A stretch of 64,000 bases of DNA. Source: Methylobacterium terrae. Lineage in GTDB: Bacteria; Pseudomonadota; Alphaproteobacteria; Rhizobiales; Beijerinckiaceae. The translations under genes were made by a program, and so were the position numbers. Positions 41,576-51,400 of this stretch are shown in pieces (within the stretch, counting starts at the first letter, position 1; each line of letters opens with the position of its first letter). The DNA lies in NCBI RefSeq assembly GCF_003173755.1, contig NZ_CP029553.1, positions 769,001-833,000 of the forward strand, in the 5' to 3' direction. Below the pieces are notes generated by a model that worked only from the letters and a program-made list of their open reading frames with translations, searched no databases and was not told where the DNA came from.

Positions 41576-43249
41576 ATGCTGGTTCAGCTCGCGATCCGCG
41601 ACATCGTCCTGATCGATAAGCTCGAGCTGAACTTTCGCGAAGGCCTGAGCGTCCTGACCGGGGAGACCGGCGCCGGCAAGTCGATCCTCCTCGATGCCTT
41701 CACGCTGGCGCTGGGCGGGCGCGGCGACGGGCGCCTGGTGCGCCAGGGCGAGGCGCAGGGGCAGGTCACGGCGGTGTTCGACGTACCCGCCGACCATCCG
41801 GCCCGGACGCTGGCGGCCGCCGCCGACATCGACACCGAGGGCGACCTGATCCTGCGCCGCATCCAGGTCGCGGACGGGCGCACCCGCGCCTTCGTCAACG
41901 ACCAGCCGGTGGGCGTGCAGGTTCTGCGCGCGATCGGGGCGGCGCTCGTCGAGATCCACGGCCAGCACGACGACCGGGCGCTGTCCGATTCCACCACCCA
42001 CCGGGCGATCCTCGACGCCTTCGGCGGGCTCGGATCGCGCCAGGCCGCGGTGGCGGACGGGGCGCGCCGGGTGCGCCAGGCCCGTACCGCGCTCGCCGAG
42101 CACCGTGCCCGGGTCGAGGCCGCCCGCAAGGAGGTCGATTTCCTGCGCCACGCCGTCGAGGAGCTCGCCGCCCTCGACCCGAAGCCCGGCGAGGAGACCG
42201 AGCTCGCCGAGCGCCGCACCGCGATGCAGCAGGGCGAGAAGGTCGCCCGCGAGCTCAACGAAGCCCTCGACGCCGTCGCCGGCCAGGGCTCGCCGACCGC
42301 CCATCTCTCGGCGGCTTTGCGCAAGCTCGAGCGCCGCGCCGCCCAGGCGCCGGGCCTCGTCGAGCCGAGCATCAACGCCCTCGACAACGCCCTCGTCGCC
42401 CTCGACGAGGCCCGCACCAGCCTGGAGGACGCGCTCCAGGCGGCGGAGTTCGATCCGCGCGAGCTGGAGCGGGTCGAGGAGCGCCTGTTCGGCCTGCGCG
42501 CCGCGGGACGAAAGTACAACGTCGCGGTCGACGACCTCGCGGCGCTCCGCCAGCGCTACGAGGGCGACGTCGCGGTCATCGATGCCGGCGAGGAAGCGCT
42601 CGGCCGGCTCGAGGCCGACCTCGCCACCGCCGATGCAGCCTATCTCGAGAAGGCGCAAAGCCTGAGCAAGGGGCGGCGCAAGGCGGCGGCCGCCCTCGAC
42701 AAGGCGGTGCAGGCCGAGTTGCCGCCCTTGAAGCTCGAGCGCGCCCGCTTCATCACCGAGATCGTCACCGATCCGGAGGCCCGCGATCCCGCGGGCCTCG
42801 ACCGGGTCGAGTTCTGGGCCCAGACCAATCCGGGCACCCGGCCCGGGCCGATGATGAAGGTCGCCTCGGGCGGCGAGCTGTCGCGGTTCATGCTCGCCCT
42901 CAAGGTGGTGCTGGCCGACAAGGGCTCGGCCCCGACGCTGATCTTCGACGAGATCGATACCGGCGTCGGCGGTGCGGTGGCGGACGCGATCGGCGCGCGC
43001 CTCGCCCGGCTCTCGGCCCGGGTCCAGACCGTGGCCGTCACCCACGCGCCCCAGGTCGCCGCCCGCGCCTCGACCCATTTCCTGATCGCCAAGGAGGCGG
43101 TGAAGGGCTCCGACCGGGTCGCCACCCGGGTCAAGCCGCTCGCCGCGATGCCACGCCAGGAGGAGATCGCCCGGATGCTCGCCGGCGCCACGGTCACCGA
43201 GGAGGCGCGCGCCGCCGCGGCCCGGCTGCTTCAGGCGGCCGAAGCCTGA
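41576..43249 (+). CDS. recN: DNA repair ATPase RecN
   Basis: 557 residues from ATG 41576 (MLVQLAIRDIVLIDKLEL), with AAGGG before it. It is an SMC-like protein: Walker A in LTGETGAGKSILLDAFTLAL, the RecN-specific EIHGQHDDRAL, a central coiled coil, then the ABC signature ASGGELSRFMLALK and Walker B LIFDEIDTGVGG. It acts in double-strand break repair by holding or bridging DNA. It follows bamD by 128 bp. Confidence 0.95.
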   Translation: MLVQLAIRDIVLIDKLELNFREGLSVLTGETGAGKSILLDAFTLALGGRGDGRLVRQGEAQGQVTAVFDVPADHPARTLAAAADIDTEGDLILRRIQVADGRTRAFVNDQPVGVQVLRAIGAALVEIHGQHDDRALSDSTTHRAILDAFGGLGSRQAAVADGARRVRQARTALAEHRARVEAARKEVDFLRHAVEELAALDPKPGEETELAERRTAMQQGEKVARELNEALDAVAGQGSPTAHLSAALRKLERRAAQAPGLVEPSINALDNALVALDEARTSLEDALQAAEFDPRELERVEERLFGLRAAGRKYNVAVDDLAALRQRYEGDVAVIDAGEEALGRLEADLATADAAYLEKAQSLSKGRRKAAAALDKAVQAELPPLKLERARFITEIVTDPEARDPAGLDRVEFWAQTNPGTRPGPMMKVASGGELSRFMLALKVVLADKGSAPTLIFDEIDTGVGGAVADAIGARLARLSARVQTVAVTHAPQVAARASTHFLIAKEAVKGSDRVATRVKPLAAMPRQEEIARMLAGATVTEEARAAAARLLQAAEA

Positions 43250-43460
43250 GCACGGCGTCCGAGGGCCGCGCGGCTCTCGACAGGCGTTTCTGAACGGTTA
43301 AGCTTCAAAGGCGATTCGCGGAACGGCCGCTCCCGGTCCCGACATGGTGAACAAAGAGCAAATTTTAACTCTTTTTTTACCACGTCCGGCGAGAGTGCTT
43401 CGTCTCGGCGCGGGTCAGCCTTCCTTCGGACCCGCGCGACGGTACGGGGCCAGCGGTCCG

Positions 43461-43664
43461 ATGAAGCAGGAAGTGAGTTCGTCTCGGGAGTCCATCCAGG
43501 ATCCGACCCTGCCGGCGATCTGCGTCGAGGCGCAGCATCGGCTCGGGCGGACGTTGCGCTCGCTCTACGAACGCACCGTGGATGGCGAGCCCATCCCCCT
43601 CGATCAGGTCGATCTGCTGCTGCGCCTGCGCCACCGCGAGCGCGAACTGCAGCGTCAACGCTGA
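43461..43664 (+). CDS. NepR-like small protein (possible second anti-sigma factor)
   Basis: 67 residues from ATG 43461 (MKQEVSSSRES). The core LGRTLRSLYERTVDGEPIP and VDLLLRLRHRERELQ lines up with the NepR pattern seen 1 kb away (IGSHLRAMYDELMQQPIPDR, FADLIAEL): helix, short linker with PIP, second helix. NepR proteins sequester sigma-EcfG until phosphorylated PhyR binds them. A divergent paralogue here could tune that switch or be a vestige. No sigma-EcfG promoter was found just upstream. Homology rests on this short match only. Confidence 0.5.
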   Translation: MKQEVSSSRESIQDPTLPAICVEAQHRLGRTLRSLYERTVDGEPIPLDQVDLLLRLRHRERELQRQR

Positions 43665-43826
43665 GGGATCGGGTCCAGGATCCGCGCCCGGCCTCGCCGG
43701 GTGCTACCCGCCCCGAACGGGGGAGGCCGTCCGGATCGAGGGGCGGCCGGAGAAGCCCGGCCGCGATCATTCGCTCGTCGTGTCACGCCGGGCCGGCCCG
43801 TGGGAGCCCGCCCGGCACGGTCCGCC

Positions 43827-44021
43827 TCACCGCCGGCGGCGGTCGCGCACCCGGACCGGGACGAGGGCCGGAGCCTGGGCCCGGGCACCGGCGAGCGCCA
43901 GGGCGCCCGCAAGGCCGAGCGCCGCGACGATCCCCGTCACGACCATCGGGGAGGCCGTGAGGAGACCCGCCAGCAGGGCGAGCAGCACGAGGCCGGCACG
44001 CAGGGCATTGGAACGGATCAT
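43827..44021 (-). CDS. Small two-helix membrane protein
   Basis: 64 residues from ATG 44021, with a strong GGAGG ribosome site 8 bases upstream. Two hydrophobic segments (AGLVLLALLAGLLTA and VVTGIVAALGLAGALALAG) are followed by a basic tail VRVRDRRRR. A good sigma-EcfG promoter (44051-44076, minus strand) lies directly upstream, so it is probably induced in the general stress response. The family was not recognised. Confidence 0.65.
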   Translation of the reverse strand: MIRSNALRAGLVLLALLAGLLTASPMVVTGIVAALGLAGALALAGARAQAPALVPVRVRDRRRR

Positions 44022-44050
44022 CTTCGAGCCTCCATCCAGACGCCGGGAAG

Positions 44051-44076
44051 AACGTGTGGTGCGAAATCGGAGTTCC
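44051..44076 (-). promoter_or_regulatory. Sigma-EcfG promoter for the 44021 gene
   Basis: On the minus strand GGAAC (44076-44072), spacer of 17, CGTT (44054-44051). It lies about 30 bp upstream of the small membrane protein start. Confidence 0.7.
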
Positions 44077-44144
44077 GCCCGGCCGCTCCCCAGCCGCAAT
44101 CCGAATGTGGGGTGCCCGATCGGTTTGCGCTACCTGCGACAAAC

Positions 44145-44169
44145 GGAACCCAAAGTCAGGCTTGACGTT
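44145..44169 (+). promoter_or_regulatory. Sigma-EcfG promoter for the DUF1328 gene
   Basis: GGAAC at 44145-44149, spacer of 16, CGTT at 44166-44169. It lies 54 bp upstream of ATG 44224. It is divergent from the promoter at 44051-44076. Confidence 0.75.
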
Positions 44170-44223
44170 GTCTGAGCACGATCGGCCCGAGGGGGCCGAG
44201 ACAACAGACAAGAGGGTCTCGCC

Positions 44224-44400
44224 ATGCTGGGTTGGGCTGTTACTTTCCTCGTCGTGGCCCTGGTGGCCGCGCTGTTCGGGTTCGGCGGCATCGCCGGCAC
44301 GGCCGTCGAGGCGGCCAAGCTGATCTTCTTCGTCGCCGTCGTGCTGTTCGCGATCTCGGCCGTGGTCGGCCTGATGCGGGGCCGTTCGCCCACGCTCTGA
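44224..44400 (+). CDS. DUF1328 (YtjA-like) membrane peptide
   Basis: 58 residues from ATG 44224, just after a GAGGG-like site. The protein is almost entirely hydrophobic: MLGWAVTFLVVALVAALFGF, a GIAGTA turn, then KLIFFVAVVLFAISAVVGLM. It fits the DUF1328/YtjA family of small inner-membrane proteins, whose role is unknown but which are frequent in stress regulons. The sigma-EcfG promoter upstream supports stress induction. Confidence 0.88.
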   Translation: MLGWAVTFLVVALVAALFGFGGIAGTAVEAAKLIFFVAVVLFAISAVVGLMRGRSPTL

Positions 44401-44480
44401 CGCGACGGGCCCGCGTCCCCTCCCGCGCCGTCCCTCTCTCCCGCGAGGGACGGCGTCGCCGCCGTGCCGCATCCGCGACT

Positions 44481-44738
44481 TCAGGCTTCCGGCGGCGAGG
44501 AAGGGGAGGGCGGGGCCGCCTCGGCGGCGTTGCGCTCGAGTTCGGCGATCAGATCGGCGAACCGGTCGGGAATAGGTTGCTGCATCAGCTCGTCATACAT
44601 GGCACGCAGGTGCGAGCCGATGCGTCCCTGGACGCTGCGGTCGAGAGCGGGCTGCTCGGGCCCAGGCCCCGGATCGTCGTCCCCGGACGCTCGCGGGCCC
44701 TGTCCCCCCGGGCCCTGCATCCCCTTGCCATCGATCAT
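44481..44738 (-). CDS. nepR: Anti-sigma factor NepR
   Basis: 85 residues from ATG 44738, with AAGGGGA upstream. After a disordered acidic N-terminus comes the NepR core RIGSHLRAMYDELMQQPIP and DRFADLIAELERNA, then a Pro/Ser tail. NepR holds sigma-EcfG inactive. On stress, phosphorylated PhyR binds NepR through its sigma-like domain and frees the sigma factor. It is divergent from phyR across a 190-bp region with one sigma-EcfG promoter in each direction, implying autoregulation. The ecfG gene is not in the window. Confidence 0.9.
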   Translation of the reverse strand: MIDGKGMQGPGGQGPRASGDDDPGPGPEQPALDRSVQGRIGSHLRAMYDELMQQPIPDRFADLIAELERNAAEAAPPSPSSPPEA

Positions 44739-44821
44739 GCCGTTCCCCTTCGCCCGTCCTGGACACGCGGACAGAGCGATGCCATGGCGCCCGGTATGCC
44801 GGGTCGCGCGCTTGCGGCGAC

Positions 44822-44846
44822 AACGCACGCCGGCGCAGTGAGTTCC
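44822..44846 (-). promoter_or_regulatory. Sigma-EcfG promoter for nepR
   Basis: Minus strand GGAAC (44846-44842), spacer of 16, CGTT (44825-44822), 84 bp before the nepR ATG. Its -35 element is only 9 bp from the -35 element of the divergent phyR promoter. Confidence 0.78.
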
Positions 44847-44855
44847 GCGCCGGTC

Positions 44856-44880
44856 GGAACGAACGCGGCCGCGGGGCGTT
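44856..44880 (+). promoter_or_regulatory. Sigma-EcfG promoter for phyR
   Basis: GGAAC at 44856-44860, spacer of 16, CGTT at 44877-44880, 48 bp upstream of the phyR ATG at 44929. Confidence 0.8.
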
Positions 44881-44928
44881 GAGGGCGTGAGGGCCGTCGC
44901 GCACAACGACAAGACCAAGGGGACCTGA

Positions 44929-45732
44929 ATGTCGACAGCACAACTCGTGGTGCAGCACCTGCCTTACCTGCGTCGCTACGCGCGCGCCCTGACGGGCAGC
45001 CAGGTGGCCGGCGATGCCTACGTGGCCGCGACGCTCGAGACGCTCGTGAACGAGCCCGAGACCCTCGGGCGCAGCACCAACGTCAAGGCCGACCTGTTCC
45101 GCGTCTTCACCCGGATCTGGAACTCGCTCTCCGTCAACGGCCAGACCGAGCAGGCGCAGCACGACCTGCCGGCCGAGGTGCGCTTAGGCCAGATCACGCC
45201 GCTGCCGCGTCAGGCCTTCCTGCTCTCCTGCCTCGAGGGCTTCTCCGAGGAGGACGCCGCGACCATCCTGGGCGTCGACGTCTCGGAGGTCCGCGACCTC
45301 GTCGACGAGGCCGGCCGCGAACTCGCCGCCGACATGGCGACCGAAATCCTCATCATCGAGGACGAGCCGCTGATCGCCATGGACCTCGAGGCCCTGGTCG
45401 AGGGCCTGGGCCACAACGTCACCGGCGTCGCCCGCACCCGCACGGAGGCCGTCAAGCTCGCCTCGACCAAGCGTCCGGGCCTGATCCTCGCCGACATCCA
45501 GCTCGCCGACGGCTCCTCGGGCCTCGACGCGGTCAACGATCTCCTGAAGTCGTTCGAGGTGCCGGTGATCTTCATCACCGCCTACCCGGAACGCTTCCTC
45601 ACCGGCGAGCGGCCGGAGCCGGCCTTCCTGATCGCGAAGCCCTTCCAGCCCGCCAACGTCTCGGCGGTGATCAGCCAGGCGCTGTTCTTCCAGCAGAGCG
45701 CCCGCCGGCGCGAGGCGCCCGCCACCGCCTGA
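44929..45732 (+). CDS. phyR: General stress response regulator PhyR
   Basis: 267 residues. The N-terminal half (about 1-135) is a sigma-factor mimic with sigma-2-like YLRRYARALTGSQVAGD and sigma-4-like PRQAFLLSCLEGFSEEDAA elements. The C-terminal half is a receiver domain with acidic pocket IIEDEPLIAMD, phospho-acceptor Asp189 in LILADIQLADGSSG, switch Thr in FITAYPERFLTG and the conserved Lys in IAKPF. Phosphorylation exposes the mimic domain, which traps NepR and releases sigma-EcfG. It is divergent from nepR. No PhyR-type kinase gene is in the window. Confidence 0.96.
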   Translation: MSTAQLVVQHLPYLRRYARALTGSQVAGDAYVAATLETLVNEPETLGRSTNVKADLFRVFTRIWNSLSVNGQTEQAQHDLPAEVRLGQITPLPRQAFLLSCLEGFSEEDAATILGVDVSEVRDLVDEAGRELAADMATEILIIEDEPLIAMDLEALVEGLGHNVTGVARTRTEAVKLASTKRPGLILADIQLADGSSGLDAVNDLLKSFEVPVIFITAYPERFLTGERPEPAFLIAKPFQPANVSAVISQALFFQQSARRREAPATA

Positions 45733-45789
45733 GAGCCTGTTTGACGTGTAAGGACGGTCTCGCGAGACACTCAATTATCCCACCCGCGA

Positions 45790-45907
45790 CCTCATCCTGA
45801 GGTGCGACCGACGGAAGCCTCGAAGGAGGCCTCCAGCGATCGCGAGACCTCTGGAGGCCTCCTTCGAGGTCAGTCGATGAACAATCGACTGACACCTCAG
45901 GATGAGG
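45790..45907. repeat. 118-bp palindromic element with nested hairpins
   Basis: Outer 15-base arms CCTCATCCTGAGGTG (45790-45804) and its reverse complement (45893-45907) enclose two hairpins. The first has 19-base arms 45818-45836 and 45851-45869 (cctcgaaggaggcctccag). The second has 8-base arms at 45871-45878 and 45884-45891. It looks like a dispersed miniature element; no coding capacity. Confidence 0.85.
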
Positions 45908-46265
45908 TTGTGAGGGGGAATAAGATTTGCCACTCAGCCAAACAGGCTCTGAGGCATCAGGTTCACATCACCCCGTACCGTCGATCCGACGCGAGGTCCC
46001 GGGCTCACCGAGAGGTGGGTGCCGGGACCTCGTCGTTCCGGGGTCGGACGAGGCACGAGACAGCCTCGGTCCATACGCAGCCATCGCGCCGAGATAAGAC
46101 GCGGCGCGCGCGGTGCTCCGGCGGGAGCGAGGTCGGGGGGATTCCGGGAGGGGTGGAGGCGTGCCCGCCCGGCGCACGGGAGAGTGGCGAGTCTCGGGCC
46201 CGGACGGGGGACGTGCACCATGGCGGAAGGCACCCCGCAACGATGTCGCACGGCCTCTCCCATCC

Positions 46266-46314
46266 GCAGGAATACTTGCGTTTGCAGGAATACTTGCGTT
46301 TGCGGGAATACTTG
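46266..46314. repeat. 18-bp tandem repeat, 2.7 copies
   Basis: Units gcaggaatacttgcgttt at 46266-46283 and 46284-46301 are identical; a third, degenerate partial copy runs to 46314. The unit is AT-rich for this genome and falls in non-coding sequence. Confidence 0.9.
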
Positions 46315-46337
46315 GTCGGTCCCGAAAACCCGCTCTC

Positions 46338-46433
46338 AATACAAAAGAACGGGCCGGATCGGGATCCGGCCCGTTGAAAGAGTTTCCGGCCAATGCACAA
46401 GGGGAATGCGGGGAGGACCAGGTGGCCGGGTTG
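46338..46433 (-). ncRNA. Predicted stress-induced small RNA
   Basis: A sigma-EcfG promoter match on the minus strand (46466-46441) would start transcription near 46433. No protein gene lies downstream on that strand. Instead, about 60 nt later there is an intrinsic terminator: 13-bp perfect stem 46375-46363 / 46360-46348, then CTTTTGT. The transcript of about 95 nt would expose CCTCCCC (46416-46410) and TTCCCC (46406-46401) in an unpaired-looking 5' part. These are anti-Shine-Dalgarno-like stretches of the kind seen in alphaproteobacterial regulatory RNAs. The call is a prediction from promoter and terminator only. Confidence 0.42.
46341..46375 (-). terminator. Intrinsic terminator, minus strand
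   Basis: Arms AACGGGCCGGATC (46348-46360) and GATCCGGCCCGTT (46363-46375) with a 2-base loop. On the minus strand the stem is followed by CTTTTGT. There is no T run on the plus side, so it works leftward. Confidence 0.75.
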
Positions 46434-46440
46434 CCATATC

Positions 46441-46466
46441 AACGGGAATCCCACCGGATTGGTTCC
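46441..46466 (-). promoter_or_regulatory. Sigma-EcfG promoter match facing the predicted sRNA
   Basis: Minus strand GGAAC (46466-46462), spacer of 17, CGTT (46444-46441). No coding sequence follows on this strand before the terminator at 46375-46341. Confidence 0.6.
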
Positions 46467-46616
46467 GTGCGGCGGCGAGCGCGATGCCTTTTCCGTTGCA
46501 TGTGGCGAAATTGCTTCGCTTGGTCCTCGCTCAGGGCCGTGCCGCGTCGGTTAACGCCAGGTTGACAGGGTGTCCGGCATTCTCGCCATGAACTGTCCCG
46601 TCCGGGCACGACGTCG

Positions 46617-46642
46617 GGAACTACTTGGGACGGGCGCGCGTT
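46617..46642 (+). promoter_or_regulatory. Sigma-EcfG promoter for the 46682 gene
   Basis: GGAAC at 46617-46621, spacer of 17, CGTT at 46639-46642, 39 bp upstream of ATG 46682. Confidence 0.75.
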
Positions 46643-46681
46643 AAGGAAGCATTCTAAAGCTTCGCCGCGAGGGCCACGCGT

Positions 46682-47188
46682 ATGCTCCGCCCGCACTTCT
46701 TCTTCGGCATTACGGTCCCGGCCGCGCTCCTCGCCCTGGTCGGTCAGCCGCTGATCGAGCACTCGGTCGAGGCGCTCGCCCGCCCGGCCGGCGTCGAGCA
46801 GGCGGCGATCAAGGGCGACCGCCTGGCGCCGGTCCGGCCGGCCGCGAGGGCGCAGGTTCCGGTCGCGGTCGAGATCACCGGTCTCGGCGCTGCCAAGGTC
46901 ACCATGCGCAACGCCGCCGGCGACGTCGTCTACCAGGCCGACGCGACCCGCAACACGACGCTCGTCGCCCGCGACACCGCGGTGCCCCACGTCACGGTGC
47001 GCGAGCGCGCGGGCGCTCCCGTGGCGCAGCGCGAGCCCGTCGCGGCCGGGCAGACCGGCCGGCGGATGCTGGAGGGCTGCGAGGGAGCGATCAGCGGCCT
47101 GGCCGGCCACGAGGCCCGCCGCCTGCTGCCGAGCCGCTGCCTGGCCGATGCCGGCGACGTCATCCCCGCCCGCGTCGCGACGCTCTAG
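46682..47188 (+). CDS. Exported protein of unknown function, stress-induced
   Basis: 168 residues from ATG 46682. An N-terminal signal-like segment (FFFGITVPAALLALVGQPL) precedes a mature part with PVAVEITGLGAAKVTMRNA and two Cys (EGCEG, PSRCLAD) that could form a disulphide in the periplasm. No family was recognised. The sigma-EcfG promoter immediately upstream places it in the general stress regulon. The next gene follows after 35 bp. Confidence 0.75.
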   Translation: MLRPHFFFGITVPAALLALVGQPLIEHSVEALARPAGVEQAAIKGDRLAPVRPAARAQVPVAVEITGLGAAKVTMRNAAGDVVYQADATRNTTLVARDTAVPHVTVRERAGAPVAQREPVAAGQTGRRMLEGCEGAISGLAGHEARRLLPSRCLADAGDVIPARVATL

Positions 47189-47223
47189 CGCCCCCGCGCG
47201 GGATACCAGCAGAGAGCCGCCCC

Positions 47224-47430
47224 ATGATCGACCTGCGTGACTACGAGGCGCCCTCGCCTCAGCCGCTTCCGCCCGAGCGGGCCCACCGCGACGGATATGT
47301 CGAGCCGGATGTCGACCGGCTCGCGAGCCTGCTGGCCGGCGTCACGGCCGTGCGGCCCGTCGACGACGTGATCTGCGCCGCCCTGGCGCGACGCAACCTC
47401 GTGGTCACGGCCCGGGCCCTCGCGGCCTGA
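47224..47430 (+). CDS. Small soluble protein, unknown
   Basis: 68 residues from ATG 47224. The sequence is acidic at the start (MIDLRDYEAPSPQPLPPERA), then has one amphipathic helix (DRLASLLAGVTAV) and ends with NLVVTARALAA. There is no membrane segment and no recognised family. It is 35 bp downstream of the 46682 gene and upstream of a strong hairpin, so the two probably form one stress-induced transcript. Confidence 0.6.
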   Translation: MIDLRDYEAPSPQPLPPERAHRDGYVEPDVDRLASLLAGVTAVRPVDDVICAALARRNLVVTARALAA

Positions 47431-47449
47431 GAACGCACCACTCCCGAAA

Positions 47450-47487
47450 CGAGGCTCCCCGGGCGCGGCAGCGCCCGGGGAGCCTCG
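47450..47487 (+). terminator. Terminator-like hairpin after the 47224 gene
   Basis: Perfect 17-bp stem: arms 47450-47466 (cgaggctccccgggcgc) and 47471-47487, loop ggca. There is no U run after it, so termination strength is uncertain. Confidence 0.65.
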
Positions 47488-47670
47488 TCGCGTCTCGTGA
47501 CCGCAGCGACGGCTCACGCTGATGCGCCGGAGGCGAGACGGGCTCCCTCCGGCGCATGAGCGTAAGTCTCGTATGGTCCGTGTCGAGCGGGTGCCTTACG
47601 AACCGGGCGGACGCCCGGTCACGCGGAGCGGGTCCTCGGCGGGCTGGGCCGGCCGGGCCTGATCCGCCCC

Positions 47671-47865
47671 TCACTCGTCGGTGGCGCGCCCGCTGCCCGA
47701 GGCCTGGCCGCCCTTGCGGCCGGCCGACGAGGCCAGTTCGCGATCCTGCGAGAAGGACCGCTTCTCGGCCGGCACGCTGCGGCCGCCCTTGCTGGCGATC
47801 TCGCGCTGACGCTCCAGGTCCATGGACGCGAAGCCGCGCTTCGAGGTCGAATTTCCGGTAGCCAT
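47671..47865 (-). CDS. KGG-motif stress-induced protein
   Basis: 64 residues from ATG 47865. It is a hydrophilic protein with KGG repeats: RGFASMDLERQREIASKGGR and SSAGRKGGQASGSGRA, as in the GsiB/YciG (con-10) family of desiccation and starvation proteins. It has no hydrophobic core and is probably disordered. A near-consensus sigma-EcfG promoter lies upstream on the minus strand (47900-47924). Confidence 0.88.
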   Translation of the reverse strand: MATGNSTSKRGFASMDLERQREIASKGGRSVPAEKRSFSQDRELASSAGRKGGQASGSGRATDE

Positions 47866-47899
47866 GATTGCCTCCTTGGCCGGTGTTCTCAGTCCGGAC

Positions 47900-47924
47900 A
47901 ACCTTCAGCGGAAATGATGGTTCC
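47900..47924 (-). promoter_or_regulatory. Variant sigma-EcfG promoter for the KGG gene
   Basis: Minus strand GGAAC (47924-47920), spacer of 16, then GGTT (47903-47900) in place of CGTT. It lies 35 bp before ATG 47865. Confidence 0.55.
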
Positions 47925-48066
47925 TGCCACGCATGCGGGTCGCCGCACTGAAGGTCCCGAATCGGGGCAGTAGAGGTGGGCCCCTGCGACACTCCGCCGG
48001 ATCGGTGACTTGGACTAACAGCACGCGGCCGGCGCGAAACTTGGCCGTAGGGCGTCCTCGTCACGC

Positions 48067-48091
48067 GGAACCCGCCGGGTGGCCCGGCGTT
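48067..48091 (+). promoter_or_regulatory. Sigma-EcfG promoter for the 48177 gene
   Basis: GGAAC at 48067-48071, spacer of 16, CGTT at 48088-48091, 85 bp upstream of ATG 48177. Confidence 0.65.
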
Positions 48092-48176
48092 CGCCCCTGA
48101 TTCCGCGGCGGAGGCATCGGTTGCGGGGCGCACGGCCCCGGCCTGCCCGCCGCGCAGCCGCGAGCGGAGCAGCCCG

Positions 48177-48395
48177 ATGACGAACAAGACCATGGTGAGC
48201 CGCGAGGCCGCCGCCCATCCGGAGACGGCGCCGGCCCCCAACCGCGGCGCCACGCCGCCGATGCCGGCCGAGGAGGGCAGCCCGCGCCCGACCACCACCG
48301 AGGAGCCCGGCGACTCGCCCCAGCCGAACCGCCAGTTCGGCGACGAGCCGATCGGCGGCCTGACCACCCGCAAGGAGTACACCCGCCGGGATTAA
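48177..48395 (+). CDS. Small disordered protein, unknown
   Basis: 72 residues from ATG 48177. It is rich in Pro, Thr, Glu and Gly (RGATPPMPAEEGSPRPTTTE) and ends with FGDEPIGGLTTRKEYTRRD. No fold is predicted and the family was not recognised. The upstream sigma-EcfG promoter suggests a stress-protective role. The ABC-type gene starts 93 bp later on the same strand and could receive read-through. Confidence 0.65.
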   Translation: MTNKTMVSREAAAHPETAPAPNRGATPPMPAEEGSPRPTTTEEPGDSPQPNRQFGDEPIGGLTTRKEYTRRD

Positions 48396-48488
48396 ACCCG
48401 GCCCGGCCGGCGACGCCCGACGCGGCGGCGGTTTCCAGTCCCGCTCCGGCCCTCTACACAGGCAGGCGGGATCTGGGGCGGCAAGACC

Positions 48489-51400
48489 ATGAGCGGCGGG
48501 GCGGGAGCGGCGGAACGGGCGGGCGGCGTCGCCGAGGGAGCGGGGGGCGCGGCCGGCGACGGATCTGCCGTCGCCCGCAACGCCCGCGCCGCCCCCCGGG
48601 CCGCGCAGGAGCCGGTCCCGGCCCGCGCCGGCAACGACCCGGAGGCCGCCGACGCCTCCGGCGGCCTCGACCGCAGCCTGTTCCGCTACATCTGGCGGCA
48701 CTCGAAGCGCGATCAGATCCTGATCTGTTGCGTCGTGCTCGCCTCGCTGCCGCTCTACTTCGCCTCCCTCGACCTGCCGCGGCGCATCGTCAACGAGGCG
48801 ATCCAGGGCCACGCCTTCGAGAAGGGCAACGAGACCGCCAAGTTCCTGGTCCTGCGCCTGCAGATGCCGGACTGGTTCGGCCACGACGTCTCGCTGTTCG
48901 ACGGCTTCGACGTCGACCGGTTCGAGCTCCTGTTCGGCCTGTCCTCGATGTTCCTGCTGCTGGTGCTGATCAACGGCGCCTTCAAGTACTGGATCAACGT
49001 GGCCAAGGGCGCGCTCGGCGAGCGCATGCTGCGGCGCCTGCGCTACCAGCTGTTCTCGCTGATCATGCGCTTCTCGCCGGACGCGCTGCGCCACACCAAG
49101 GCCTCCGAGGTCGCCACCATCATCCGCGACGAGGTCGAGCCGATCGGCGGCTTCATCGGCGACGCCTACATCCTGCCGGCCTTCCTCGGCACCCAGGCCG
49201 CCACCGCGATGGCGTTCATCCTGCTCCAGAACGTCTGGCTCGGGCTCCTCGCGGCCGGGGTGGTGGGGGTGCAGTTCGTGGTGATCCCGCGCCTGCGGCG
49301 CGAGCTCCTGCGCCTCGGGCGCCAGCGCCAGCTCGCCTCGCGCCGCCTCGCCGGCCGGGTCGGCGAGGTGGTGGACGGTATCGCGGCGGTGCATTCCAAC
49401 GGGGCCGAGGCCTGGGAGCGGGCCGAGATCGGCCACCGCCTCGGCGGGCTGTTCGACCTGCGCCTGCGCATCTACCGGCGCAAGTTCATGGTCAAGTTCC
49501 TGAACAACCTGCTGGCGCAGATGACGCCGTTCCTGTTCTACTGCATCGGCGGCTACTTCGCCCTGAAGGGCCAGCTCAGCATCGGCCAGCTCGTCGCGGT
49601 GATCGCGGCCTATCGCGACCTGCCGCCGCCGCTCAAGGAGCTGATCGACTGGGACCAGCAGCGGCTCGACGTGCAGGTGAAGTACGAGCAGGTGCTGCAG
49701 CAATTCCTGCCCGAGCGCCTGCTGGGCCTCGACGCGCCCGGCCGCGACGACTCCTTGTGCGGGCACCTCGCCGCCGAGGGCGTCGGCGTCCAGGAGCCGC
49801 ACGGGCCGGTGCTGGCCAACGTCTCGCTCGAACTGGCGCTCCCGGCCGTGGTCGGCATCGTCAGCGACGGCGGTCCCGCCGCCTCGACCTTCGCCCGGGT
49901 GCTGGCGCGGCGGGCGACGCCGACCTCCGGCCGGGTCACCCTCGAGGGCCACGACCTCGCGGAATGGTCGGGCGCCGCGCTCACCCGGCGCATCGCCTAT
50001 GCGGGGGTCGACCCGATCCTGTTTCCGGGCTCCCTGCGGGACAACATCGTGTACGGCCTCAACCGCCGCCCGCCCGAATCCGCCGCCACGGACGCGAAGG
50101 CCCTCGCCGAGGCCCACCGGACCGGCAACCCGGTCGAGCCGTTCCCGGCCGACTGGACCGACTACGCCCAGGCCGGCGTCGCGGATGCGAGCGCCCTCGA
50201 CGCCCTGATCCTCGACTGGCTCACCCGCATCGGCATGGGCGAGGAGGTCTACCGCTTCGGCCTCCTCGGGCAGGTCGATCCGGAGCGCCACCCCGACCTC
50301 GCCGCCTGGCTGATCGAGGCCCGGACCGCCTTCCGCGAGCGCCTGGCGGCGGAGGGGCACGCCCACCTCGTCGAGCCGTTCGACCCCGCCCGCTACAACC
50401 GTCAGGCGACGGTGGCCGAGAACCTGCTGTTCGGCGTGCCGACCACCACGGCGCTCACCGGCCGGGCACTCGCCGAGCACGCGGTGGTGCGCCTCGTCCT
50501 CGATCGCACGGGGCTCGCCGACGACCTCGTCACCATGGGCGAGCGGATCGCCGCCACGATGCTGGAGATCTTCCGCGGCCTGCCGAGCGGGCATCCGCTG
50601 TTCGAGCAGTTCTCGTTCCTCTCCGCCGACGAACTGCCGGAATACGAGGCGATCCTCGCCCGCCGCACCGCCACCGAGGCCTCCGCCGAGCGCCACGGCG
50701 GCGGCGCGCTCAACCGGATCCGGCGGCGCTGGATCGGGCTCGGCCGCTACGGCTCGGCCGACGCGACCCGGCTCATCGCCCTGCCGCTCGCCTATATCGA
50801 GCCGCGCCACCGCCTCGGCCTGATCGACGACGCCTTCCGCGAGCGGCTGGTCGCGGCGCGGGGCGAGCTGCGCACCACCCTCGACGAGGCCGGCCTCGGC
50901 GGCGTCGACTTCTACGACCCCGACCAGGTCTGCGCCGCGGCCCCCTTGCGCGACAACCTCCTGTTCGGCCGCATCAACCAGTCGGTCGCCGACGCCGTCG
51001 AGACCGTGACGGCCACCGGCACCGCCCTCGTGCAGGAGATGCGCCTCGCCCCCGCCATCACCCGGGTCGGGCTCGACCATCAGGTCGGCCCGGAGGGGCG
51101 CTTCCTGTCGAGCGGCCAGCGCGCGGTGGTGAGCCTGGTGCGCGCCCTGATCCGCCGGCCCGACCTCCTCGTCCTCGACGGCGCCCTCTCGCCGATGGGC
51201 GAGAACCGCGCCCGCACGGTGTTGGGCCTGCTGCTCGAGCGGTTCGGCCGCGAGAACAGCCTCGTGGTGGTGCTGCCGAACGACCGCGTCGCCGACCGCT
51301 TCGAGTGGGTGCTGCGGGCGGCGGGCACGCAGGTCCACGGCCCGGAGCGGCCGGCGAGAGGCGAGGGAGCCCCCGCCGAGGGCCATGAATCCGCCCCCGG

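Follow-up and report, generated by a model that had tools for sequence, protein, structure and literature searches.

A probable, conserved general stress response island around nepR and phyR in Methylobacterium terrae, with eight sigma-EcfG-type promoters and a small RNA that may pair with G-rich ribosome-binding sites

Introduction

Methylobacterium extorquens is the species in which the PhyR partner switch was first identified (PMC8103513). In the usual alphaproteobacterial layout, ecfG-nepR is divergent from phyR and carries sigma-EcfG promoters, and M. extorquens AM1 is an exception, with a phyR locus that lacks ecfG (Francez-Charlot 2016, PMC4814048). The same paper describes for AM1 a promoter consensus of GAAC-N16,17-C/GGTT and paralogues of NepR, and reports that the EcfG3 protein of M. 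extorquens rises after stress in a PhyR-dependent manner with no control at the level of transcription; its discussion says that this protein may be regulated 'possibly by a small RNA'. We describe here the nepR-phyR locus of Methylobacterium terrae, a methylotroph of soil and leaves; the locus lies in a 64-kb stretch of contig NZ_CP029553.1 (the window; all positions without further label refer to it). The switch genes stand there in an island of eight sigma-EcfG-type promoter sites, one of which precedes a small RNA.

Small RNAs of the general stress response (GSR) have been described in other Alphaproteobacteria. ReC64 of Rhizobium etli is an RNA of 88 nucleotides (nt) located 3' of phyR-tcrY behind a sigma-EcfG promoter; its start was mapped by 5' rapid amplification of cDNA ends, and its expression was abolished in an ecfG1 mutant (PMC3892343). 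GsrN of Caulobacter is driven by sigma-T/sigma-EcfG, has an exposed C-rich loop in its 5' part and belongs to RNAs that are usually found near GSR genes (Tien 2018, PMC5869019). That paper predicts gsrN-like RNAs in Rhizobiaceae, R. palustris and B. diazoefficiens, and its main text does not mention Methylobacterium. Within the open-licence literature, we found no report of a GSR small RNA in Methylobacterium or the Methylobacteriaceae.

Results

A search of both strands of the window for GGAAC-N16/17-CGTT gave seven matches, all inside the island, and the variant ending in GGTT occurred once, at 47900-47924(-) (Table 1). All eight sites have the boxes and spacing of a sigma-EcfG promoter (GGAAC, C/GGTT, 16-17 nt). 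The two strands of the window hold 113 GGAAC words, and none of those outside the island is followed by a fitting second box at the required distance. An initial annotation had listed these eight sites and had reported no further correctly spaced match among the other GGAAC words that it noticed in the 64 kb, and both statements were borne out. It had also placed most of the sites 30-90 bp before small genes. An open reading frame (ORF) does start 29-85 bp past seven of the eight (at 44021, 44224, 44738, 44929, 46682, 47865 and 48177), but the site at 46441-46466(-) precedes the small RNA. The eight sites form four divergent pairs, and the -35 boxes of the nepR and phyR promoters, separated by 9 bp in the window, are comparably close in most relatives.

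The strict pattern (CGTT) matched 112 times in the 6.16-Mb genome, versus 32 matches for the pattern reversed. Seven strict sites fall within 4.04 kb of the island, where 0.073 would be expected (P for seven or more = 2e-12). When 112 sites were placed at random 20,000 times, the highest count in any 5 kb was five, and the densest 5 kb of the whole genome outside the island holds four sites, three of which precede copies of one repeated element. Checked genome-wide with this strict pattern, the cluster has no equal in density elsewhere. A crude codon-usage gene caller placed 98 of the 112 sites in intergenic DNA (63 of these no more than 300 nt from the start of a gene) and the other 14 within genes, counts that are only rough because the caller missed nepR. 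With 7 of the 112 strict sites, the island forms the densest stretch of the presumed regulon but not the bulk of it.

Conservation was followed in 80 loci obtained from one PhyR scan of the GTDB genome collection, from which records very near the window may have been omitted; the nearest named relative in the scan is M. variabile (locus L019, PhyR 99% identical). Sites were compared in 15 Methylobacterium/Methylorubrum loci (window excluded) and 11 Microvirga-type loci, and denominators are the loci in which the gene was recognised. The promoters of nepR and of the small RNA are kept in 15/15 and 11/11 loci, that of the DUF1328 gene in 15/15 and 10/10, of the KGG gene in 15/15 and 9/10, of the two-Cys gene in 14/15 and 7/7, and of phyR in 15/15 and 5/11. 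A minus-strand site stands at the place of the 44051 promoter in 15/15 and 10/11 loci; a homolog of the two-helix ORF was recognised in four loci of each group, and the site precedes it in 2/4 and 4/4, respectively. The promoter at 48067 counts against a uniformly conserved island, as it is confined to close kin (2/11 Methylobacterium loci with the gene, and 1/1 Microvirga-type). Positions are thus conserved at seven of the eight sites. Median spacer identity to the window was 0.24-0.79, mostly 0.3-0.5 (0.38 and 0.24 for the small RNA promoter in the two groups). The sites persist while these identities are low, so that conservation lies in the boxes and not in the DNA that separates them.

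In 27 loci of relatives (window excluded), the density of strict sites was 14.4 and 8.6 per 10 kb in the two 2.5-kb stretches that flank the phyR start, compared with 0 and 0.5 per 10 kb at a distance of 7.5-10 kb, and the reversed pattern was found in none of the bins. Neighbouring sites at most 350 bp apart were divergent in 86 cases, convergent in 3 and tandem in 5, and divergent pairs took in 172 of 224 sites. The corresponding split in 50 other Hyphomicrobiales loci (36, 3 and 15) indicates that the divergent layout is weaker outside the family. The core of the island persists where the flanking genes differ: recN is full-length solely in L019 among the 80 loci, and the ABC-transporter gene is found solely in L019 and L020. 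In L024 and L041, the KGG gene was observed on the opposite side of phyR, about 5-6 kb upstream of it, together with the 72-amino-acid gene in L041.

The cluster might be a chance or compositional pile-up of GGAAC and CGTT words, given that the motif is short and that the 32 reversed matches show that chance matches do occur in this genome. However, the probability of the cluster, the absence of reversed matches from the relatives' loci and the conservation of positions across diverged spacers all contradict this, and on the genome counts, clustering and site conservation we rejected chance as a virtually negligible explanation. The density, conservation and divergent pairing of the sites, which are directly observed, give good support to a stress regulon clustered physically around its master switch. 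The initial annotation had described this as a regulon of small genes; that description is to be amended in that one promoter serves the small RNA and two serve nepR and phyR. Control of the island by sigma-EcfG, which we infer from these sequence features, is very likely.

About 90 nt past the site at 46441-46466(-) lies a terminator-like hairpin with a T-rich tail. Taking the 5' end from the promoter gives a small RNA of about 92 nt, which in 28 sequences consists of a hairpin (CCGGCC/GGCCGG) around a nearly invariant loop of about 30 nt, CUGGUCCUCCCCGCAUUCCCCUUGUGCA, followed by the terminator; the first stem is also nearly invariant. The folding energy of the window sequence is 4.5 standard deviations below that of shuffles. 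In an alignment of 38 sequences, which was fitted to the structure and is hence biased toward it, 97.2% of cells were paired, and 12 of 21 pairs had changed on both sides; nine of these belong to the terminator and three to the first stem. Control structures slid by 1-3 columns paired at 25-43%. No pair in two small helices within the loop showed changes on both sides. In the predicted fold the UCCCCUU of the loop is unpaired and the CCUCCCC stretch partly paired, and it is on this fold that the RNA would present an exposed C-rich loop in its 5' part. A coding gene behind the 46441 promoter was considered and rejected, because the relatives' sequences diverge beyond the terminator. Rfam 15 gave four matches at E up to 1 in 42800-49200, none overlapping the small RNA, and no match to the small RNA in six relatives' loci.

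The RNA lies beside phyR in the window and likewise in 26 relatives' loci. A first model, R1, found a single place in the M. terrae genome (99.5 bits) and matched 20 of 149 sampled genomes of the family, 17 of them strongly, with a match in every same-genus genome among those listed. In each of the 17 strong matches phyR lies within the same 3 kb, and in 16 of them a site stands immediately upstream. R2, a wider model made from 38 rows, matched 9 of 297 genomes of the order and 2 of 289 of the class; about 14-15 of up to thousands of candidates were scored per genome, and so absence from these searches, like that from the 129 unmatched family genomes, means little. Among the 46 loci that had contributed no row to it, R2 recovered the position beside phyR at E up to 0.2 in eight (L055, L062, L063, L065, L066, L068, L069 and L070), finds that were not blind, as seven of the eight had been seen earlier by pattern. 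At the same threshold it also matched L060 at a second place, L048 at its second RNA, and L074 and L087 away from phyR. A covariance model links the Methylobacteriaceae RNA to Xanthobacteraceae-type RNAs. In Microvirga, the islands hold an additional, shorter RNA that shares this design and has a CCCCC loop and a sigma-EcfG-type site of its own (Table 1).

Existence of the small RNA is near certain. The element downstream of phyR could nevertheless be a terminator or leader, or could bind a protein via its C-rich loop, instead of being a base-pairing RNA. It does end in a terminator-like hairpin, and a loop that hardly varies would equally fit a protein site; but a promoter-spaced site directly before the element in 15/15 and 11/11 loci, and a terminator within about 90 nt beyond which sequences diverge, make this explanation improbable as a whole, although the loop may yet bind a protein.

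Repeats were observed around the small RNA. A palindromic element of about 160 bp (45772-45935), between phyR and the small RNA terminator, is an interspersed repeat with 79 matches in the genome, both strands counted, and may account for the greater distance between phyR and the small RNA in the window than in relatives. Just past the terminator, at 46266-46301, an 18-bp unit, GCAGGAATACTTGCGTTT, occurs in tandem. Elsewhere in the genome, a hairpin element with AGGTCCTATCCCTC has exactly four copies as searched (contig positions 224600, 5802344, 5802830 and 5804126), each about 60-80 nt 3' of a perfect sigma-EcfG-type site, and is possibly a second, multicopy stress-driven RNA.

The ribosome-binding site of phyR is an unusual AGGGG to which the small RNA loop is complementary, and the same holds, less consistently, for nepR; in Methylobacteriaceae the matching pairs are UUCCCCUU with AAGGGGAA-like sites. 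AGGGG was present in the 22 nt before the phyR start in 27/27 loci (window included) and in 12/12 new genomes among 16 examined, versus 27 of 676 predicted ATG starts (4%), a background whose starts are themselves uncertain. It preceded the DUF1328 gene in 1/26 loci, the KGG gene in 0/25 (start taken one codon early), the two-Cys gene in 0/16 and the 72-amino-acid gene in 0/12. Of the 15 Xanthobacteraceae-type loci with the RNA, 12 have the phyR site GGGAGGG, complementary to a CCCUCCC loop. The exact match between loop and phyR site was longer in own pairs than in shuffled ones (permutation P 0.0003) among 16 representatives that were picked afterwards and of which several are related. Read from sequence, the match suggests feedback on the switch.

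Several results weigh against such feedback. With the nepR start taken as the first in-frame ATG past the predicted transcription start, AGGGG preceded nepR in 21/27 loci but in only 4/12 new genomes. By duplex energy, 30% of 36-nt windows of the M. terrae locus bind the loop no less strongly than the phyR site does, and when loops were swapped between lineages, 38% of the foreign ones beat the own loop at a given phyR site (18% in Methylobacteriaceae, 73% in the Xanthobacteraceae-type group). Co-folding with phyR gave a net -3.6 kcal/mol, weaker than a loop-altered control at -6.2; with nepR the values were -19.6 versus -15.3, slightly favouring nepR. Of 28 loci (L071-L098) in which neither RNA model matches beside phyR, 10 likewise have AGGGG ahead of that gene. 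In Caulobacter, the nepR-sigT mRNA co-elutes with GsrN, yet no feedback on sigma-T was found (PMC5869019). Duplex, swap and co-fold energies were dropped as target tests, being unselective and partly opposed to pairing.

The island and the small RNA may therefore be true sigma-EcfG targets of which the RNA acts downstream only, as GsrN does on katG, with AGGGG as a tolerated Shine-Dalgarno variant. The lack of GsrN feedback, the failure of the energies to single out phyR and the AGGGG sites in loci without a model match are in keeping with this. It accounts poorly for the AGGGG at phyR in all 27 loci and all 12 new genomes against a 4% background, its absence from most other island genes, and the longer matches of own loop/phyR pairs, and we regard it as a serious possibility that falls somewhat short of probable. 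On the same evidence we put forward, tentatively and aware that it may well prove otherwise, that an RNA driven by the stress sigma factor pairs with the ribosome-binding site of phyR and, in many species, also with that of nepR, giving the partner switch a built-in RNA feedback, and that loop and phyR site have co-evolved across Hyphomicrobiales. Feedback on phyR taken singly is a little less than an even bet.

The remaining genes of the island are mostly small (Table 1). No convincing Pfam family was found for the two-Cys protein (1 of 21 members matched, E 0.048), none of its 19 database relatives has a usable functional name, and its structure model is uninformative (mean predicted local distance difference test score 58). 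An ORF of 67 amino acids at 43461-43664(+), with which the interval of the initial annotation begins, was considered as nepR and rejected, as its weakly NepR-like match to PF18557 (15.7 bits) is below the cut-off of 25.7; no GGAAC-N16/17-C/GGTT lies upstream, and its sole full-length homolog among the 80 loci is in M. variabile. A strong GC-rich hairpin at 47447-47511, between the 68-amino-acid ORF and the KGG gene, matches Rfam P37 below threshold (33.9 bits, gathering 50) and is possibly a shared terminator.

Table 1. Features of the island and of related loci. Positions are those of the window except for the second Microvirga RNA, where they are those of the named locus.
Feature	Position	Strand	Remarks
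Two-helix protein gene (small protein, two hydrophobic stretches)	43827-44021	-	no Pfam match
Sigma-EcfG-type promoter, N17	44051-44076	-	5' of two-helix protein gene
Sigma-EcfG-type promoter, N16	44145-44169	+	5' of DUF1328 gene
DUF1328 membrane protein, 58 amino acids	44224-44400	+	PF07043 49.9 bits
nepR, anti-sigma factor	44481-44738	-	PF18557 58.4 bits (cut-off 25.7); NF051865 (NCBIfam) 26.1 bits, under that model's cut-off of 100
Sigma-EcfG-type promoter, N16	44822-44846	-	5' of nepR
Sigma-EcfG-type promoter, N16	44856-44880	+	5' of phyR
phyR, anti-anti-sigma response regulator	44929-45732	+	sigma-like domains (PF22029, PF22233) fused to receiver domain (PF00072); NF006623 374 bits
Small RNA, about 92 nt	46343-46434	-	hairpin with C-rich loop and intrinsic terminator (stem 46348-46375)
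Sigma-EcfG-type promoter, N17	46441-46466	-	5' of small RNA
Sigma-EcfG-type promoter, N17	46617-46642	+	5' of two-Cys protein gene
Two-Cys protein, 168 amino acids	46682-47188	+	hydrophobic N-terminus, two invariant C-terminal Cys
68-amino-acid ORF	47224-47430	+	3' of two-Cys gene, without own site; homologs in 3/80 loci
KGG-repeat stress protein	47671-47865	-	PF10685 66.1 bits
Sigma-EcfG-type promoter, GGTT -10, N16	47900-47924	-	5' of KGG gene
Sigma-EcfG-type promoter, N16	48067-48091	+	5' of 72-amino-acid protein gene
72-amino-acid low-complexity protein	48177-48395	+	no Pfam match
Second Microvirga RNA	L036 12865-12940; L034 8851-8928	-	also in L033, L035, L038, L039, L044 and L048

Discussion

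The locus resembles the GSR core of M. extorquens AM1 (PMC4814048) in its promoter consensus and NepR paralogues, and in that ecfG is missing beside phyR and ecfG paralogues are located elsewhere. In the M. terrae genome, eight ORFs match NF009198 at 143-234 bits, none above the cut-off of 270; one of them (contig 4800991-4801958) was observed to have a sigma-EcfG-type site that lies some 270 nt before the start predicted for it. Unlike here, no small RNA at the phyR locus is described in the available text on AM1. An RNA downstream of phyR behind a sigma-EcfG site recalls ReC64 (PMC3892343), a likeness by features; L079 and L091, the two loci that have Rhizobium or Rhizobiaceae group in their titles, gave no RNA model match. 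It is likewise by features, namely a site directly upstream and proximity to GSR regulatory genes, that the RNA can be likened to GsrN; its loop of about 30 nt, specific and nearly invariant, sets it apart.

In the explanation that we favour, stress-activated PhyR would pull NepR off sigma-EcfG, and the freed sigma factor would read all eight units together: nepR, phyR, the DUF1328, KGG-protein and two-Cys-protein genes, those of the two small proteins, and the small RNA. The C-rich loop of the RNA would then base-pair with G-rich ribosome-binding sites, and pairing on phyR, the best-supported target, and on nepR, for which the evidence is weaker, would damp or reset the partner switch. By analogy with GsrN in Caulobacter, further mRNAs would probably be targeted too. 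Both the action of the RNA and its pairing are inferred from sequence. We consider it likely, as a whole, that Methylobacterium and its kin share a conserved GSR island of eight sigma-EcfG promoters, co-read with a small RNA that most likely pairs with G-rich ribosome-binding sites.

Within the open-licence literature, the Methylobacteriaceae RNA with its nearly invariant loop and covariance model, the island of four divergent pairs and the match to the phyR ribosome-binding site are new, and the newness of the RNA would narrow if homology to gsrN were shown. The RNA is a concrete candidate for the PhyR-dependent control of EcfG3 hinted at in PMC4814048. Against that link, the leaders of the eight ecfG-like ORFs (600 nt before the core) contain no exact complement of 8 nt or more, and six 7-mer complements in total, one of them at a Shine-Dalgarno site.

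A handful of unstudied small stress proteins can be listed from the island, whose divergent promoters present a layout in which a stress regulon stays next to its switch as the neighbouring genes vary. If the proposed pairing is true, the alphaproteobacterial partner switch would carry a built-in RNA feedback loop.

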